Virus record (IMG/VR): IMGVR_UViG_3300048908_000307
Location: 1 to 64,000 of that record
Origin: a virus
Reading direction: 5' to 3' (one strand)
DNA: 64,000 nucleotides
Below are positions 28,098 to 52,199 of the stretch, one piece after another (within the stretch, counting starts at the first letter, position 1; every line of letters begins with the position of its first letter). The notes below the pieces were generated by a model. It searched no databases. It was not told where the DNA came from and saw nothing but the letters and a program-made list of their open reading frames with translations. A program made the position numbers and the translations under genes.

Positions 28098-29762
28098 CTA
28101 CCTCCGGACTCCGTAGACGGCTTCCGGCATGCAGGCGATGTACTGGTTCCGCAGGTCTGTGGCGGCGTCCCCTGAGGCGACTGGCAGGCGCAGGCGGACT
28201 TCGTCGACGACGATCACGTCCGTGACGGGCGGGAAGTTCGCGACAGTCGGCGCGATCGTTGCGGTGGCGGCGTTGGCAGGCGCGGTGACGGTGCCGTCAT
28301 AGAAGGTGTACGTGTTGGCCGCGAGTGCGTTGGTGAGGGTGCTTGTCGACAGGTAGGCGGCGGCGGCATTGAACCAGTTGATGTTCAAGTCGACGCTGCG
28401 GGCGGTGGCGCAGCGAATCCACGCGGACGCCCGGTAGATGGTGCCCGCAGTGACGGGGACCGGGTTGGATTCGATGCTGGGGAACTGGGCGACGCCATTG
28501 GGCGTGAACTGGGCTGCTCCCGTGCCGACCTTGACGGGGGTGGTGACGCGGACGCCGGTGCCGCCATTGGAATTCCAGCCGGTGATGTTGGTGTCGAAGT
28601 CCGGGTTGGCGTTGAGGGTGCCGCCGCCTCCCGCCGCAGCAGACACGCCGAGCCAGAAGTCGAGTGTCGTCGTGGTGTTCTTCTGTACACCGCCGTTGGC
28701 GTGGGCAATGAAGGTCCGAGCGGAACCGCAGGCGAAACGGTTGCCATCACTGTCGTCGTTGGTGGCGGTCAGGTAGCCCTGCGCGGACGTGTCGACGAAC
28801 GCCTCCGCCGTATTGAGGCGGATCTTCAGCTGGTCAGCGGCCGTGCCGACCTGCATGTAGCCCTCGACGATGCGGGAACCGCGCCGGAGAGTGAGGTCGA
28901 TCGTAAACCGGCCCGGATTGAGGGCTTTGACCAGGCGGAGGATCGCCATTTCGGGGTCGTTCCGCAGCAGGGTGGCTGCGTCCCAGGCGCCGCCGACGAG
29001 TCCGCTGGACGAGTAGAAGGGGCTCCATAGCTTCGACCGGTAGGCGCCGCCCGTGTAAGCCTGCACGTCAAAGCTGCCGCCACCGGTCGCCGACCAGGTG
29101 ACGTTGATCAGGCCGTTGGTAATGGACCAGCCGGTCGCGGCAAGGGGCACGTCGACGCCGTACACCTCCTGCCCGCCGGTGGTCGTCGCGCGGACTCGGC
29201 CGGCGAGGTAGGCGGTGGGGAGGCAGCCCCAGCGGGGCGAGACGTTGGCGGGGACGGTCCGGTAGACGGTGATGGTGCCGTCGGCGCCGGTGCGGGTCAT
29301 CGTGGTCGGGTTGGTGGCGCCGGTGTAGTAGCCGTAGTGGCCGATCGGCGGGGCGTGCCAGCGCTCCCCGGTGAGGGCGAAGTCGTTCAGTCGGACGGCG
29401 CCGGTGAGCCTGCTCTGCAGATCGGTTTCGGCGTCGGAACCGACCCGGTCCAGGGAGACCTTCCAGGAGCTGGTGACGGCCTCGTTGAGGTACTCGGTGT
29501 AGGTCGCCCCAGAGCTCTTCACCGCGTAGTAGCCGTTCCGCTCGGGCTTGTCGGTGAAGGTGACCGGGATGACGGCGCCGGGGATCAGGGAGTTGATGCC
29601 GTCGTGCCGGGCGATGACCTGCGCCCGGGTGAGCGGCGGATACGACTCCTGGCCTTCGAGGTCGAGGCCACGGCCGTCACCTCCGCCGGACTCGGTAGCG
29701 ACGAACGTCTCGCGGAGGGGAATGCGGCCGAGCTGGAGGTCGCCCCAGTTGAACAGGCTCAT
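28098..29762 (-). CDS. Distal tail / baseplate protein
   Basis: The 554-aa product (MSLFNWGDLQLGRIPLRETF...) directly follows the tape measure gene, where siphophages encode distal tail proteins. A C-terminal jelly-roll carbohydrate-binding-like segment is suggested by PDFDTNITGWNSNGG...AAQFTPNG...VTAGTIYRASAWIRC. That could help attachment to cell-wall glycans. ATGA overlap couples it to the tape measure. Confidence 0.7.
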   Translation of the reverse strand: MSLFNWGDLQLGRIPLRETFVATESGGGDGRGLDLEGQESYPPLTRAQVIARHDGINSLIPGAVIPVTFTDKPERNGYYAVKSSGATYTEYLNEAVTSSWKVSLDRVGSDAETDLQSRLTGAVRLNDFALTGERWHAPPIGHYGYYTGATNPTTMTRTGADGTITVYRTVPANVSPRWGCLPTAYLAGRVRATTTGGQEVYGVDVPLAATGWSITNGLINVTWSATGGGSFDVQAYTGGAYRSKLWSPFYSSSGLVGGAWDAATLLRNDPEMAILRLVKALNPGRFTIDLTLRRGSRIVEGYMQVGTAADQLKIRLNTAEAFVDTSAQGYLTATNDDSDGNRFACGSARTFIAHANGGVQKNTTTTLDFWLGVSAAAGGGGTLNANPDFDTNITGWNSNGGTGVRVTTPVKVGTGAAQFTPNGVAQFPSIESNPVPVTAGTIYRASAWIRCATARSVDLNINWFNAAAAYLSTSTLTNALAANTYTFYDGTVTAPANAATATIAPTVANFPPVTDVIVVDEVRLRLPVASGDAATDLRNQYIACMPEAVYGVRR

Positions 29763-32700
29763 CGGGCGCGCTCCTTGTTCCACTTGCGGATGGCTTCATT
29801 GATGTCGCTGGCCATCGCGGTGGCGAACTGCTTGCGCTCCGACGGGCTCGGCATCGTGAGGCTGTTCACGGTCATGTTGACGATGACGTCTCCAACTCCT
29901 GGGCCGCCGCTCGCCAGGAGCGCGTCGAGCCTGGCCGTGTGGTCCGCGGACAGGACCCGCTCGGGGCGGCCGGTGGCGTTGACGGACATCGTCGCCCCGG
30001 GCTGGAGCAGGCCGCCGCTGTCGAACTTGGCGGCGGGGGCGAAGCCGTACCGGTCGGTGAACAGACCATCGTTGTAGCCGCGCGCGGACTTGCCCATGTG
30101 GACGCCGGCGCCGCCGCTGGACTCGACGTTCATGCCGCCGAGGGTGCCCGCCGTGTGGCCCACGCCCGCATTCGTGATGCCGATCATGAACGGGGAGTTC
30201 AGGTTCCGCACCCAGCCGGCGGGAGCCGTGTTGCCGGAGAACGATCCGGTCGCCCACCGGCGGTGCGGACGCTCCCCGCGGATCACGGACTCGATGGCGG
30301 ACATCAGACCGGAGCAGTTGTGGCTGATGAGTCCGTCCGAGACGAACGAGTGCGAGTCCTGGACCTCGATGTCCCAGGTCTCCTCCATGCCGTCTGGTTC
30401 CACGGAGAGCACTCGCTGCACCGACATGCTCTCGGTCCTCAGCTGCGCCATGAGGCGGAGCAGGCCGGGGCGGTGGCCAGCGCCAGTTGTCTGGTTGGCG
30501 CCCCGTCCCGGTGCAACCTCAATGCTGTGGATCGGACGGGCGTTCTCGATCTTCTTCCCGCCGATATAGACGTCCTTGGTGCGCGCCCGGGTGTTGGTCA
30601 CCGAGACACGGTCGCCGCGGCGCAGATGCATCTCCCGGACGCCCTCGATGAGTTCGCGGGACGTGGCCTTGTACTCAATGAGTTCTGCCGTCTCGAAGGT
30701 GGCGCCGTTCTTGCCGTTCTTGTACGAGCCGTCACCGTCGGCGTACCCCCGGAGGAAGGCATCTTGTGCGCCCTGGCTCCATTCCATGACGACGGGCGGG
30801 ATCGTGCGCTCGTGGGACTTGCCATGGAACCCGTTGCGGATCATCCATCGAACCCGCTGGACGTCGCTGATCATCACGCCATGGCGCGGGTGGTGGGTGA
30901 CCCTCCGGTTCGGCGAGTACTTGCGGAGCACGGCCATCGCCTTCTCGGCGAGATCGTCGTACACGCAGATCCGGATGCCGCTGTTCTGATTGACGCTGCC
31001 GTCGGCCAGCCAGAGCCCCATCAGCCAGGCCAGGTCCTCCGGTACTTCCTCACCGCCTTCCTTCGGTGAACCGGTGTAGGTGACCAAGTAGTCGGTCGGG
31101 GTGAGGTCGCGGACTTCCTTCCACTCCGTGCCCCACTCGGCCCCGGCGACGCGCTCGTCCACGTCCATCATCGGCCGCTTGACGGGGGCAGCAACGAGCA
31201 CGCGGTGCCCAGCAGTTGCCCGGATGGAACGGTTACGGGTGCGGACCTTGAACAGCTCCTGCTCCCCAGTGTTCCACTTGGCCAGCACCTTGGACGCGAC
31301 GAGCTTGCCGTCTTGGTAGGCCATCACTTCCATGCCGGGGTGAAGGTCGCGAAGTTCGGTGTGGCCCTGCGGAGTTGTAATCATGGACGAAAGAGTAAGG
31401 CAGTCCCATGATGGGTTTCCGTTTCCGGCCCACTGATAGGGCAAGCCGTCCTGGGTCTTCACCCACGACATCGCCCGCTGTACGGCCGGCCCGCCCACGG
31501 CTTTTTTGTCCTCGTTGCCGAACCAGCCGAGCATCCCGTCGACGCCTTTGTTGACGAGGTCGCGCATGAGGTTGCCGATGCCGCTGTTCGGGATCTGGCC
31601 GATGAGGGGGCGGACGAGGGCGCTGAGGGCCTTCTGTGCGGCAGCCTTCAGCCCGCCGAGGACGAGGTCTTTCGTCCAGGAGGCGGCGGAGCTGATCGCG
31701 CCGCCTATCGCGTCCGTGACGGTGCCGATGATCCCGCCGCCCGCGAAGCCCTGTGCGGGCTGGTGCATCTTGCGTTCTTGCTGGCTGGTCGGATTGCCGC
31801 CGGTTTTGGTGGGGCGGTCTTGGCCGAGCAAGGCGTCGATGCCGCGGTGGCCGCCAAGCTTGGCGACTTGGCTGTTGGAGAGGATGCGTTCGCCGGGGGT
31901 GAGCATGGCGGGGACGGTGTCCCGGTTGCCGCTGCCGGGGACGACGCCGCCCTTGTTGAAGCCGAGGCTGATCGACGGGAGGGTGATCTTCGAGCTGATC
32001 TTTCCCGCGATGGAGTTCCACATGCGGCGGATGCCGTTGTTGTAGACGGTGTTCACTACGAACCGCACGGGGCTAGCGATCTTCGACTTCACGCCGTCCC
32101 AGATCGTGCCGAGCGCGTCCTTCAGCGTGGAGAATGCCGTCTTCATCGCCGACTTGAAGGTGTCGATCTTCGTGCGGATCGTGGAGAAGATCCCGCTGAT
32201 CTTGTCGCTCGCCCCGTTCCATAGCGCGTTCCATGTGGTCGTGACCGCGGTCTTCACGCCGGCGACGCCGTTCTTCACCGCCGTCCAGGCGTTGGAGATC
32301 GCGGTGCGCAGACCGGTCCAGAAGGAGTCCCACTTCGTGCGGACCTTGTCCCAGAGGGTGTTCCACGTCGTCACAACCCAGTTCTTCAGGTCGGTAAAGA
32401 TCTTCTTCGTGCCGGTCCACAGCGACCCGAACCAGCTGATGATGGCGTTGACCAGGTCCGGGATGATCGAGTGGCCGACGAGCTTGTCGTAGAGCCACTG
32501 GAAGGCGTCGACAATCCAGCCCACCACCTTCTTCACCCCGTCAGCGAGAGCGGTCAGCCAGCCGATCACCGTCGTGATAGCAGGTACCAGCAGGTTGACC
32601 GCCCCAGCCAGTACGGTCGCCAGCAGCGTCGCCAGCCCGGTGATCAGCGGCATCAGCGGAGTGATCACCTGCATGGCCAGCTGCAACAGAGACGCGATGA

Positions 32701-35479
32701 GCTGACTGATCGGCGGGAGCAGCGGCGTCAACGCCGTCAGCAGCTGCGGGAAAAGAGGCGCCATCGCACCCAGGAACTGGCCCACGAGCTGCACCGCCGG
32801 CAGCAGGGCCGTGATGACCGGGGTCAGCCCCTTCGCCAGGGCCGCGATGAACGGCACCAGGGAGTCGAGCAGGGTCTTGATGAACGGTGCGATGGCCTTG
32901 ATGACGGTGGCGATCAGGTTGCCGATGGGCTGCAGTAGCGGCATGACCGCCTGCACCAGGCCGACGAGGACGCTGCCGACGTCCTTCACGACGGGCAGCA
33001 GGGCGGTGATGATCGGCATCAGGGCTTTGCCGAGCGCGCCAGCCAGTTCTGCGAGGACCGGCCCGAACTTTTCGGCGAGGTCGGTCACCACGGGCGCCAG
33101 TGCAGCGAGCAGCGGAAGCGCTGCCTGGATGACCGCGCCGAGTGTTCCCGCGACCAGTTTGGCGATGGCGTTGATGGCCGTAAAGATCGAGGTCAGGGCC
33201 TTCTGCACTTCAGGCATTGCGGTGATCTTGCGGAGTTCCTTGAACACCGCGCCGATCCCGCCCAGCGCGTCACCGCCCGCAGCCCCGGCGGCTTTCATGA
33301 TGTTGCCGAGGGTCCCGAAAATGTCCCCGGCCAGGTGCCCGAACTGCTTGGCGATGTCGACGGCCTGGTCGATGATCTTTTCCAGGTGGCCGGACTTGAA
33401 CGCCTGAGTGAGCTGCTGGGAGAACCGGTCGAACACCCCTCCGGCCGCCGTCGTGATCCTCTTGAACGCCGGGGACGCGGCAATAGATACCTGCGCGAGG
33501 CCCTTGATGAACTGACCCGGGATCCGACTGAGGGGCTTCAGCCCGCCGTTCAGGCCGTCGAACATCCGCCGCAGCATGCCGGTCTTACCAAGCTCGGTGA
33601 CTGCGCTCGCGGCGTTCTTCGCCATACCGTTCAGAACCGTCGCCGTGCCCGTCAGCCCGGTCTTCAGGGACGGCAGGACGGCCGACGACATGGTCGTAAA
33701 CGTCTGCCCTAGGCCAGCGAACAATGCGTTCTGTACATCGAGCTTGAGGCCGCGCCAGGCCTCGCGCTGAGCGAGGACCGCGTTGACGAACGCCCGCGCA
33801 TTCGGGGCGAGCTTTGCCAGGGCGTTGCCGACCTTGTTCGTCGCCACGGCGCCGGCCGTCTGCGCTTCCGCCAGGGCGCGTGCCGCGTCTGCGGCGGCGG
33901 CCTGCGCGTCGGCGATCTGTCGGGCGCCGTCGACGGCAGCCTTCGCGGCAGCGGCGCGCGCATCGGACAGATCCCGCTGAGCCTTTGCGATCTTCTGGGC
34001 GCCGTCGACCTGCTGCCGTGCCGCCTCGATCTCGGCGTCTTTCAACGCCTGCGTCTTGTCCTTGACCGTCTGGTTGGCGTCGGCAATGTTCTGCTTGGCC
34101 TGGGTGACCTTGGCGCTGCCTTCGACACCGGCTTTGTTTGCGGCGTCGGCCTGGTCCTGCAACCGCTTCGTTTCGGTCTGCTGCTCGCTGAGGGCCTGGA
34201 GTGCCTGGTCGTAGGCGAGTTGGTCCTTGGCGAGCTGCTCGGCGGACACGTTCGCGCCTGCGGCCTTGTCGGCGGCGAGCCTCTTCTCGGCGTCCTGGAG
34301 GTTGAGGACGTCCTGCCGTTCGTTGAGGCGGGCGTCCTTCAGCCTGTTGTCGAGGTCCTCGAGTTCCATGGCCGCGTCTTTGCGGGCCTGGGTGAGGTCG
34401 AGCTGTGCCTGCCGGGATGCGCGCTGGGCGGTGGCGAGGTCCCGCTCCGCGTTGGCGACAGATTCGGCTGCCCGCCGGTTGGCGTCGGCGACGTCGGACA
34501 CCGTGTTCTTGAGGTTGAGCTGGGCGTCCTGGATCTGCCGGGCAGCCTGCACGCGGGCCGCGGCGGCGGCAACCTCTGCGTCCTTCACGCCCTGCTGGGC
34601 CTTGGCCAAGCTGCGCTGGGCGTTCTCGACCTGCCGGATCGACTTGCTGGCCGCGCCCGCACTGGATGTGGCCGGCGCGAAGGCCGCCTTGAAGGCATCG
34701 CCAATGCCGCTCGTGCCGATCTTGATTGCGGCGAAGGCCGCGCCGAGCGACAGCACGGCGGGGGCCGCGACAGCAGCAGCGGGCCCCATCTGGATGATGG
34801 CCTGCCCCAGCGAAGCCACGGTGGGCAGCGCGCCGACGGCGATGCTGGACAGGCTGGTCAGGCTGGAGACGAGCCCGCCAAGCCCTCCCCCGCCGCCCCC
34901 GAGGCTGGACAGGGCCGACCGGTCGACGTCGACGCGCACGTTGGCGTGGCGGTCGCGGGTCAGGGCGTCGAGGCGGGCGCGTGCGGCGGCGTCATTGAGG
35001 TTGACGCCAACGGTCATGTCCCGGCGGCGGGTGAGGTTGGCGAGGGAGTCGGCGGCGACGCGGGTGTCGACGTCGACACCGATACGGACCTGGCGCCGCT
35101 GGATCAGGTTGCGGATCTCCGCCGCGGCGACCCGGGTGTCCACGCTGGCCCGGATGTTGACGACGCGCTCGGCGGTGAGCCGGTCGAGCTGGGCTTGGAC
35201 ACGCCGGAGTGCCGTGTCGTTCATCTTCGGCGTGACGGTGACGTCAAGGTCTCGCAGGCGGAGGCGTGACAGTGCCGTCTCGTCGACCTTGATCCTCGCG
35301 GTGATGATGCGTTCGCGGGCGAGGCGGTCCAGTTTGGCGATGGCGGCCCGGTCATCCAGGTCGACGCCGACCTTGACCTTCTGGTCCTTGGACTTGAGGC
35401 GGGACATGGCGCGGTCGTAGGCGGACTCGTCGGCCGTAACCTCGACATAGCCCTCAGCGATCCTGAAGCTACCCGCCAC
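29759..35479 (-). CDS. Tape measure protein with NlpC/P60-like domain and intein
   Basis: The 1906-aa precursor is the tape measure protein. It has about six N-terminal repeats (residues about 30-200, V-x-V-D-x-D...L-x-x-L-x-R-x-R), coiled coil (about 270-560), hydrophobic LLP-type repeats (about 790-1000) and Trp-rich helices (about 1040-1150). A C-terminal NlpC/P60-like peptidase follows (LPYQWAGNGNPSWD | CSGLMSAI, later GVGHTAGTLGG). An intein at residues 1360-1721 splits the peptidase right before its Cys. After splicing the protein is 1544 aa. The GTG start has GGAGG 8 nt upstream. It sets tail length and may open the cell wall during entry. Confidence 0.92.
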   Translation of the reverse strand: MAGSFRIAEGYVEVTADESAYDRAMSRLKSKDQKVKVGVDLDDRAAIAKLDRLARERIITARIKVDETALSRLRLRDLDVTVTPKMNDTALRRVQAQLDRLTAERVVNIRASVDTRVAAAEIRNLIQRRQVRIGVDVDTRVAADSLANLTRRRDMTVGVNLNDAAARARLDALTRDRHANVRVDVDRSALSSLGGGGGGLGGLVSSLTSLSSIAVGALPTVASLGQAIIQMGPAAAVAAPAVLSLGAAFAAIKIGTSGIGDAFKAAFAPATSSAGAASKSIRQVENAQRSLAKAQQGVKDAEVAAAAARVQAARQIQDAQLNLKNTVSDVADANRRAAESVANAERDLATAQRASRQAQLDLTQARKDAAMELEDLDNRLKDARLNERQDVLNLQDAEKRLAADKAAGANVSAEQLAKDQLAYDQALQALSEQQTETKRLQDQADAANKAGVEGSAKVTQAKQNIADANQTVKDKTQALKDAEIEAARQQVDGAQKIAKAQRDLSDARAAAAKAAVDGARQIADAQAAAADAARALAEAQTAGAVATNKVGNALAKLAPNARAFVNAVLAQREAWRGLKLDVQNALFAGLGQTFTTMSSAVLPSLKTGLTGTATVLNGMAKNAASAVTELGKTGMLRRMFDGLNGGLKPLSRIPGQFIKGLAQVSIAASPAFKRITTAAGGVFDRFSQQLTQAFKSGHLEKIIDQAVDIAKQFGHLAGDIFGTLGNIMKAAGAAGGDALGGIGAVFKELRKITAMPEVQKALTSIFTAINAIAKLVAGTLGAVIQAALPLLAALAPVVTDLAEKFGPVLAELAGALGKALMPIITALLPVVKDVGSVLVGLVQAVMPLLQPIGNLIATVIKAIAPFIKTLLDSLVPFIAALAKGLTPVITALLPAVQLVGQFLGAMAPLFPQLLTALTPLLPPISQLIASLLQLAMQVITPLMPLITGLATLLATVLAGAVNLLVPAITTVIGWLTALADGVKKVVGWIVDAFQWLYDKLVGHSIIPDLVNAIISWFGSLWTGTKKIFTDLKNWVVTTWNTLWDKVRTKWDSFWTGLRTAISNAWTAVKNGVAGVKTAVTTTWNALWNGASDKISGIFSTIRTKIDTFKSAMKTAFSTLKDALGTIWDGVKSKIASPVRFVVNTVYNNGIRRMWNSIAGKISSKITLPSISLGFNKGGVVPGSGNRDTVPAMLTPGERILSNSQVAKLGGHRGIDALLGQDRPTKTGGNPTSQQERKMHQPAQGFAGGGIIGTVTDAIGGAISSAASWTKDLVLGGLKAAAQKALSALVRPLIGQIPNSGIGNLMRDLVNKGVDGMLGWFGNEDKKAVGGPAVQRAMSWVKTQDGLPYQWAGNGNPSWDCLTLSSMITTPQGHTELRDLHPGMEVMAYQDGKLVASKVLAKWNTGEQELFKVRTRNRSIRATAGHRVLVAAPVKRPMMDVDERVAGAEWGTEWKEVRDLTPTDYLVTYTGSPKEGGEEVPEDLAWLMGLWLADGSVNQNSGIRICVYDDLAEKAMAVLRKYSPNRRVTHHPRHGVMISDVQRVRWMIRNGFHGKSHERTIPPVVMEWSQGAQDAFLRGYADGDGSYKNGKNGATFETAELIEYKATSRELIEGVREMHLRRGDRVSVTNTRARTKDVYIGGKKIENARPIHSIEVAPGRGANQTTGAGHRPGLLRLMAQLRTESMSVQRVLSVEPDGMEETWDIEVQDSHSFVSDGLISHNCSGLMSAIESVIRGERPHRRWATGSFSGNTAPAGWVRNLNSPFMIGITNAGVGHTAGTLGGMNVESSGGAGVHMGKSARGYNDGLFTDRYGFAPAAKFDSGGLLQPGATMSVNATGRPERVLSADHTARLDALLASGGPGVGDVIVNMTVNSLTMPSPSERKQFATAMASDINEAIRKWNKERAR
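30317..31402 (-). mobile_element. Intein with LAGLIDADG-type endonuclease domain
   Basis: The 362-aa insertion has the intein hallmarks. It begins with Cys (CLTLSSMITTPQG) and has block B T-x-x-H (TAGHRVLV). Block F is TWDIEVQDSHSFVSDG, the end is LISHN, and Cys follows as +1 extein residue. Between the splicing blocks are two DOD-type motifs, LAWLMGLWLADGSV and FLRGYADGDGSY, with their acidic residues intact, so the homing endonuclease may be active. Joining the flanks restores SWD-CSG, the catalytic region of the host domain. Confidence 0.93.
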
Positions 35480-50102: not shown

Positions 50103-52199
50103 TCAGTTGCGGACATTCCGGGCTGCGGTGATGTCGGTGAGGAGATAGCCCGGGGTGCGCTCCCCGTCCGCCCCGGTGACCCTCTTGACGTCGAGACCGA
50201 CGCCGAGCGCCTCTATCTCGTCCTTGAGGACCTTGCCGACGCGGGTGGTCCAGCCGCGGTCCGTCTCACCGTCCTGCTGCCCGTACTTGGCCGGGGTGGT
50301 GGCAGCGAGCGCGGCGAATACCTCGGCGTTCGTTACTCCTCCGCGGCCGGTCGAACGGGCGAGGATTTCCAGCCGCTCCAGCAAGGTCACGCGGACGATG
50401 CGGCCGTTGCCGCGCTCTCCGCCGGCCGCCGACGAGACGCCGGTCCAGGCCAAGAGCTTGGCCTCGATCGGATCGTGCCACTGGCCAGGCAGGCGGCCCG
50501 CGGCCTTCCGCATCTCGTAGGCGTCGGCAATGATCGGTGCCTTGTCGTCGTCGTCGATGAAGAACGACCGCAGCGAAACGGTGCCGAGGTCGGGCGACTT
50601 GAACCAGAACCGTCCGGGCTGGTCGAGCGGAATCAGCGACGCGTCGTACCCCTGGCCCGCCATGCCGTCGCCGAGGATCGTGTTGGAGGCGTTCGGAGAC
50701 TCGGTGTTCATGGCGGCGCGCGAGATCAGGTTCTGGCGGAGCCGACCGCGGACAACGTCGACCTCGGGCACCTGGGTTGCCGCCACGAGAAGCACGCCGA
50801 GGCCGGCGCCGACGGCGCCGATCTGGGCCAGGCTCTCGACGATCTCATCGACGTAGGGGCTCGTCCCCTTGGCCGTGTACGTGGCCAGCTCGTCGATGTC
50901 GATGAGCTCGATGCCGCCGATGGCCTCGATCAGATCCTCGGTGAGCTTGGCCTTGCCGCGCTCGTCGAGGAAGTCCGCCCGCCGGTCCAGATCCTCCAGG
51001 ACGGCCCGCAGGAACAGGGCGAGCCTCTCGGGGTTCTTCTTGACGAACGTGGACAGCAGGCCAGCGAACGCGTTGTGCTCGCCGGACGCCTTGCCGTCGA
51101 AGAGGCGCAGGTTGACCCGCACGTCCTTGGTCGCGCCGAGGTTGAGGTTGGCCAGCAGTACGCCCTTGCCGCGGCGGGTGGCGCCGCCGACGAGCATCAT
51201 CGTGTCGCGGACGCGGACGAGGACGGCGTTGCCTCGCTTCCCGAAGGCGAGCGGGGCGCCGTCATTCCACAGGTCGAGCTTGCCCTTGTGGCCAATAAGC
51301 GGGGAGACCTGGGCACTGGCGAACGGGTCGGCGCTGGCCACCCAGATCTCCAGACGGGACTCGCTACTGCCCGCGCCGCGGCCGACGCTTAGGTCGAGCC
51401 AGTCGCTGTGGACAGCGAGCGCTGAGGCGATCTCCTTCTTCTTACCGAGGGCGATCATGGCGGGCATGCCGGAGGGCAGGTCGACTGCGAACGCGATGCC
51501 GGGCCCTTCGGTGTGCGGCAGGCCCACGCCGCGGATCTCCGCCGCCCGCTTCTCGGGTACGACGCCGGCCTCGACGAGGACGCGCCGCATGGTCTCCTCG
51601 CCCAGGTGGGAGGTGCGGGTCGGGGCGGACACCGGGGCGACGGCGGGCTCTTCGGGCCGACCGAAGTAGCCGCCGATGACGACGAAGGCCAGCGCAAGCA
51701 GCAGCTGAATCCACCAGCTGCCTATCGTGAATGCAGCCGTGGCCCCGCCAGCGATGATCAGGCCGCTGATGCCGGTGCGGATCCAGTGCCGCTTCTTGTG
51801 GGCCTTGAACTCGGTGCGCCGTACCTCCAGGAGGGCGCGCGCCTTCGACTCGTCCGCGGCCCGCGCGCTGCCCCGCGGCTGCTCCTTGGCCTGGCGCAGC
51901 ATCAACTTGGCGGTGGCGATCTGCTGCCGGTAGTCGTCGTGCCGCGCCTCCCACCACCGCAGGCACAGCCGGCGGTAGCCGCGCAGCGACCAGCCGAGGT
52001 AGTACGGCGAGTGGGTGACGTGGAAGCGGATCGCGTCGACCGCGTTGTCGCAGATGTAGACGAGGCGGTGCCGCAGCTGCTCGCCGGACAGGATCCAGGC
52101 GGCGCGCGGGCGGGGCTCGATGGCGAGCGGTGCGGCCTGTGCGGGCTCGTCCTTGACGAGCTTCAGCGGGGTGCGCTCGTCGGTCAGCGGGGTGGCCAT
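50103..52199 (-). CDS. FtsK/SpoIIIE-type DNA translocase (TraB/TraSA-like)
   Basis: The 698-aa protein has a membrane region at residues about 143-180. The FtsK motor domain carries Walker A GGATRRGKG (338-346) and Walker B IELIDIDEL (429-437). A C-terminal winged-helix-like region (from about 600: ILARSTGRGGVTNAEVFAALAA...) would bind repeat DNA. Streptomyces conjugation uses one such hexameric pump to move double-stranded DNA between hyphae. Membrane gene, small GIY-YIG gene and octamer array all lie beside it, supporting a transfer role over chromosome segregation. Confidence 0.87.
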   Translation of the reverse strand: MATPLTDERTPLKLVKDEPAQAAPLAIEPRPRAAWILSGEQLRHRLVYICDNAVDAIRFHVTHSPYYLGWSLRGYRRLCLRWWEARHDDYRQQIATAKLMLRQAKEQPRGSARAADESKARALLEVRRTEFKAHKKRHWIRTGISGLIIAGGATAAFTIGSWWIQLLLALAFVVIGGYFGRPEEPAVAPVSAPTRTSHLGEETMRRVLVEAGVVPEKRAAEIRGVGLPHTEGPGIAFAVDLPSGMPAMIALGKKKEIASALAVHSDWLDLSVGRGAGSSESRLEIWVASADPFASAQVSPLIGHKGKLDLWNDGAPLAFGKRGNAVLVRVRDTMMLVGGATRRGKGVLLANLNLGATKDVRVNLRLFDGKASGEHNAFAGLLSTFVKKNPERLALFLRAVLEDLDRRADFLDERGKAKLTEDLIEAIGGIELIDIDELATYTAKGTSPYVDEIVESLAQIGAVGAGLGVLLVAATQVPEVDVVRGRLRQNLISRAAMNTESPNASNTILGDGMAGQGYDASLIPLDQPGRFWFKSPDLGTVSLRSFFIDDDDKAPIIADAYEMRKAAGRLPGQWHDPIEAKLLAWTGVSSAAGGERGNGRIVRVTLLERLEILARSTGRGGVTNAEVFAALAATTPAKYGQQDGETDRGWTTRVGKVLKDEIEALGVGLDVKRVTGADGERTPGYLLTDITAARNVRN

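Follow-up and report, generated by a model that had tools for sequence, protein, structure and literature searches.

The catalytic-cysteine codons of the NlpC/P60-like domain in the tape measure protein of a Streptomyces-type phage have, in all likelihood, been invaded by a mobile class 1 intein that carries a LAGLIDADG homing endonuclease. The intein was found in the window, which is the whole 64,000-nucleotide stretch of DNA analysed, positions 1 to 64,000 of a viral contig of 75,488 bases (IMG/VR record IMGVR_UViG_3300048908_000307). The identity and boundaries of the intein, the empty sites in relatives, the scattered occupancy, the disagreement between intein and host-protein trees, and the existence of a sister lineage inserted at the next codon were all obtained by computation. 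Coordinates of the features are collected in Table 1.

Table 1. Features of the interrupted tape measure gene, with positions in the window
Feature	Position	Strand	Basis or remark
Tape measure protein open reading frame	29759..35479	-	1906 aa with intein, 1544 aa without; open throughout
NlpC/P60-like domain, N-terminal part (GGPAVQ...NPSWD)	31403..31495	-	Homologue alignment, Pfam, PDB profile, predicted fold
Class 1 intein with LAGLIDADG homing endonuclease, 362 aa	30317..31402	-	Pfam, NCBIfam, boundaries, PDB profile, AF2/Foldseek
Splicing block B, TAGH, residues 63-66 (T63-A-G-H66)	31205..31216	-	Sequence; H66 invariant in intein family
First LAGLIDADG motif, LAWLMGLWLADG, residues 124-135	30998..31033	-	D134 invariant
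Second LAGLIDADG motif, AFLRGYADGDG, residues 215-225	30728..30760	-	D224 invariant
Splicing blocks F/G, TWDIEVQDSHSFVSDGLISHN, residues 342-362	30317..30379	-	NCBIfam, family alignment
+1 extein Cys codon, predicted catalytic Cys of the peptidase	30314..30316	-	Invariant in 34 aligned intein-free homologues
NlpC/P60-like domain, C-terminal part (CSGLMSAI...DRYGF)	30041..30316	-	Viral-contig scan, homologue alignment, predicted fold
Predicted catalytic His codon (GVGHTAGT)	30155..30157	-	Invariant in 34 homologues

The interrupted open reading frame was best matched by the tail length tape measure protein families of PHROGs (E 1e-132). The only Pfam family that matched the split domain was NLPC_P60, which was recovered in all 34 intein-free homologues, in some weakly (best E 3e-6; 18.1 bits for the homologue L006, below the curated cut-off of 23). 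A profile of the domain, when compared with the PDB, matched 8zdo (gp16), a tape measure protein of known structure, together with numerous NlpC/P60 enzymes, and an AF2 model of the domain from an empty homologue resembled MepS, LytE and Acd24020. The PDB sequence search and the predicted fold support the NlpC/P60-like assignment made in the original prediction, and the Pfam matches point the same way. The insertion site lies within a highly conserved stretch of this domain. Two residues, the Cys that follows the insert and the His within GVGHTAGT, do not vary among the intein-free homologues (C46 and H99 in L006 numbering). This makes it very likely that the extein residue at +1 is the catalytic Cys, as had been proposed from the SWD/CSG junction. 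Because the insert sits between the Asp and the Cys of that junction, the active site would be contiguous only after splicing, again as predicted. The domain itself is presumably an active peptidase.

The large terminase is closest to those of Streptomyces phages such as Yara, and the portal and head genes come next, which makes an actinobacterium of the Streptomyces type the probable host. The gene that directly follows the tape measure gene (28098-29783, minus strand) includes a CBM_4_9-like carbohydrate-binding stretch that scored slightly below the cut-off, and it also matches a PHROG named phosphodiesterase. In one related contig (L025:5392-6108), the spacing between the tape measure peptidase region and the next gene exceeds that in the window by about 550 bases. 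Elsewhere in the window, a 698-residue FtsK/SpoIIIE-like open reading frame occupies 50103-52199 on the minus strand.

The boundaries of the intein agree with those given in the original prediction: C1 is encoded at 31400-31402, the terminal Asn362 at 30317-30319, and the +1 Cys immediately after it. The isolated intein scored above the curated Pfam cut-offs for LAGLIDADG_3 (47.3 bits against 22.5) and Intein_splicing (38.6 against 35.8), and above the NCBIfam cut-offs for intein_Nterm (28.2 against 24.5) and intein_Cterm (18.9 against 15.6); profile searches of this kind had been suggested at the outset. An AF2 model of the intein, for which seven relatives formed the input alignment, had a mean pLDDT of 83, and Foldseek ranked homing-endonuclease inteins first (TliVMA, 7qsu, E 5e-20; PhoVMA; PI-SceI; PI-PfuI). 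A profile of the intein family also matched solved inteins by sequence.

The splicing blocks and the two LAGLIDADG motifs described in the original prediction are present, with their key residues in place. The insert is in frame and possesses an N-terminal C1 and block A, a block B of the form T-x-x-H, and a terminal His-Asn followed by Cys at +1, which is the composition of a class 1 intein. Block F/G contains D344, H351 and H361-N362, and both acidic residues of the LAGLIDADG endonuclease, D134 and D224, are present. A C-junction pattern of this kind occurs once in the window, at the intein site, and was not matched in any of 100 shuffles. Divergence at third codon positions is about double that at first or second positions, in the splicing and endonuclease parts alike, a pattern that points to a constrained protein.

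The distribution of the intein was followed through a scan of viral contigs with the C-extein as query, which returned 80 homologous loci. The site is uninterrupted in 79 of them. In the closest relatives of the window (L004-L008 and L013, 76-86% identical at the DNA level), the nucleotide alignment stops at the insert and restarts directly after it, a clean break in the comparison with insert-free homologues that had been called for. The site is empty in the nearest of these, L004, L006, L008 and L013, and for most of the intein-bearing cases the nearest relatives are likewise intein-less phages. The tape measure protein of the cultured Streptomyces phage Kromp (MH744420.1) has the same peptidase domain, 75% identical, but its SWDCSG is contiguous and the site holds no intein. 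A search of the flanks for a co-conversion tract gave none: identity to the close empty relatives is approximately equal near to and far from the site. Either the intein was not gained recently, or it came from a closely related donor.

The family has seven more members, each splitting an NlpC/P60-type motif, which makes eight inteins with that of the window. The first to be found was the intein of the Gordonia phage BearBQ (OR253908.1), which is homologous over its full length (35% identity, E 1e-59) and likewise lies in a tape measure peptidase motif, but its boundary (WGDC/CLTS...VVHN/SGAM) falls one codon later, with Ser at +1, and the two host proteins are far apart. The BearBQ intein occupies L002:6001-7116, and the GenBank record names no intein; the phage can be cultured on G. 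terrae 3612. Comparison across related phages, as originally recommended, placed the insertions in the same motif and also revealed a second register, one codon downstream, that the original prediction had missed. Site a (WD/CSG), at which the catalytic Cys is itself the +1 splicing nucleophile, is occupied in two of the eight, the window and L085 (NPSWD/CATLS), the latter being cut off by the contig end so that its C-junction is missing. At site b (DC/S), Ser takes the +1 position and the catalytic Cys the -1 position; this site is occupied in the other six (L070, L089, L090, L088, BearBQ and L093), five of them in tape measure proteins and one in a stand-alone peptidase. L070 has its insert in a tape measure protein near the Streptomyces type (SWDC/CIVG...VVHN/SGFM), and L088 belongs to a Gordonia tangerina contig. 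The intein outside tape measure proteins lies at L093:5833-7644, in a stand-alone NlpC/P60-like protein (DC/SELVEW). In L090 (2054-3139) the second LAGLIDADG motif reads GYCAADG, against GYCDADG in relatives, with the inner Asp retained.

Splicing at the assigned junctions is predicted to restore the D-C-S of the NlpC/P60-type motif in all seven members with a C-junction, that is, in all except L085. A start of the b-type inteins at the first of their two Cys residues was considered and discarded, since an intein excised from that point would take the catalytic Cys with it. Two neighbouring residues of the DCS run are usable as nucleophile, and this may account for the tolerance of both registers. 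When viral contigs were scanned with the intein as a single-protein or two-sequence query, nothing was found, and a general scan of viral contigs for site-a C-junctions gave no additional case. A search of actinobacterial genomes produced weaker intein matches in 12 further genomes; in the four of these with a readable C-junction, the matches lie in other proteins.

Trees of the inteins and of the N-exteins were then compared. The intein of the window forms a clade with that of L085 (100/100), and the b-type members form a clade (100/99) when distant phage inteins serve as outgroup; the placement of L093 shifts with the outgroup, depending on whether distant phage inteins or P1201 alone is used, and the trees therefore favour neither site as the ancestral one. 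In the N-extein tree, the window groups with the empty L004, L006, L008 and L013 (96/99), and L085 groups with the empty L044 (100/99); L085 and L044 lie within a six-row group that includes the b-type L070 (84/83). The host protein of L085 is thus near that of L070, and its intein is closest to that of the window. A tree that forced the inteins of L085 and L070 together was rejected (p-AU 1.6e-67), the tested group having been picked after the trees were seen. In these trees the inteins track the insertion register and not the host protein, the pattern that site-specific homing should leave, and this lends homing indirect support.

Taken together, the evidence fits a selfish element that homes and whose splicing and endonuclease motifs are intact, and does not fit a maintained switch. 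On the other side stand the missing co-conversion tract and the small number of site-a members known, two. Following translation, C1 would attack the Asp-C1 bond, and the +1 Cys, the peptidase's own nucleophile, would take over the N-extein. Cyclisation of the terminal Asn and an S-to-N shift would then join WD to CSG and free the thiol, yielding a complete tape measure protein with its active-site Cys. In a co-infecting phage or a prophage, the endonuclease would cut the empty site, and repair of the break would use the intein copy. Both splicing and cutting by the window intein are expected from its sequence. The original prediction had set simple homing at a conserved codon run beside a conditional switch. 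The first of these roles is upheld by the intein-less near relatives, the scattered occupancy, the disagreement of the trees, the intact endonuclease motifs and the related inteins at the motif in unrelated hosts; the second has gained no positive evidence.

As a switch, the intein would hold splicing back, for example according to redox or assembly state, to time maturation of the peptidase, and it would be kept by selection. Environment-sensitive splicing is known in other inteins, according to two reports (PMC6195587, PMC5790916), and the use of the enzyme's own catalytic Cys as +1 nucleophile means that activity is strictly tied to splicing. However, phage inteins commonly insert beside conserved motifs and active sites (PMC5050341), so that location, the sole support for a switch, is by itself no argument for regulation. 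Against it also stand closest relatives that manage without the intein, an occupancy that is rare and scattered, canonical splicing residues including the penultimate His, a retained endonuclease, and a member of the same family in an unrelated, non-tail peptidase (L093). A switch is accordingly quite improbable, and the same low probability attaches to its extension to a splicing-gated virion enzyme, in which redox or assembly state would time the tail peptidase through the catalytic Cys and the shift between registers a and b would reflect selection on this coupling.

An Asp at -1 promotes N-terminal cleavage in some other inteins, and the residue at -1 is Asp here. Hydrolysis at the N-junction could then cut part of the tape measure protein and deprive it of its peptidase domain, but every residue for full splicing is present, and the intein-less relatives show this Asp too, within an uninterrupted motif, so that it was not chosen by the intein; such a maturation by cleavage is very unlikely. 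Least probable is a decayed, non-splicing insert that inactivates the peptidase: its loss would be tolerable in principle, since phage TM4 is viable without its own, different tape measure peptidoglycan hydrolase motif, which is active yet dispensable (PMC1796659), but the frame is open, all splicing blocks are intact and divergence is biased to third positions.

Several known systems resemble this one in part. Mycobacteriophage inteins (in TerL, portal, RecB-like, RDF, TOPRIM and ThyX proteins; PMC5050341) also home, lie beside conserved motifs or active sites and are scattered among phages, but the hosts listed are packaging, DNA-modifying or nucleotide-metabolism proteins, and the words tail, tape measure and lysin are absent from the text of that paper. 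The V-ATPase homing-endonuclease inteins (TliVMA, 7qsu; PI-SceI) share the overall fold of a splicing domain with a LAGLIDADG endonuclease, but identity to 7qsu is approximately 17% and the host protein is unrelated. Tape measure genes, for example that of phage ICP1, are also targets of homing elements, although there an intron-type homing endonuclease gene interrupts the gene, in contrast to an intein at the active site (PMC10448857). No earlier description of an intein within the NlpC/P60 domain of a tape measure protein was found in the open-access literature searched, which does not prove that none exists, and an intein family that uses two registers of one catalytic motif may be new to specialists.

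The finding extends the targets of inteins to a tail-borne cell-wall peptidase, an unusual one. It also places a single intein family in two adjacent registers of DCS, which supply Cys and Ser, respectively, as +1 nucleophile, and opens the question, testable in culturable phages, of how an insertion site shifts by one codon while host function is kept. Genes for tape measure proteins of this kind would encode more residues than the virion protein contains, a difference of consequence for tail predictions based on length.
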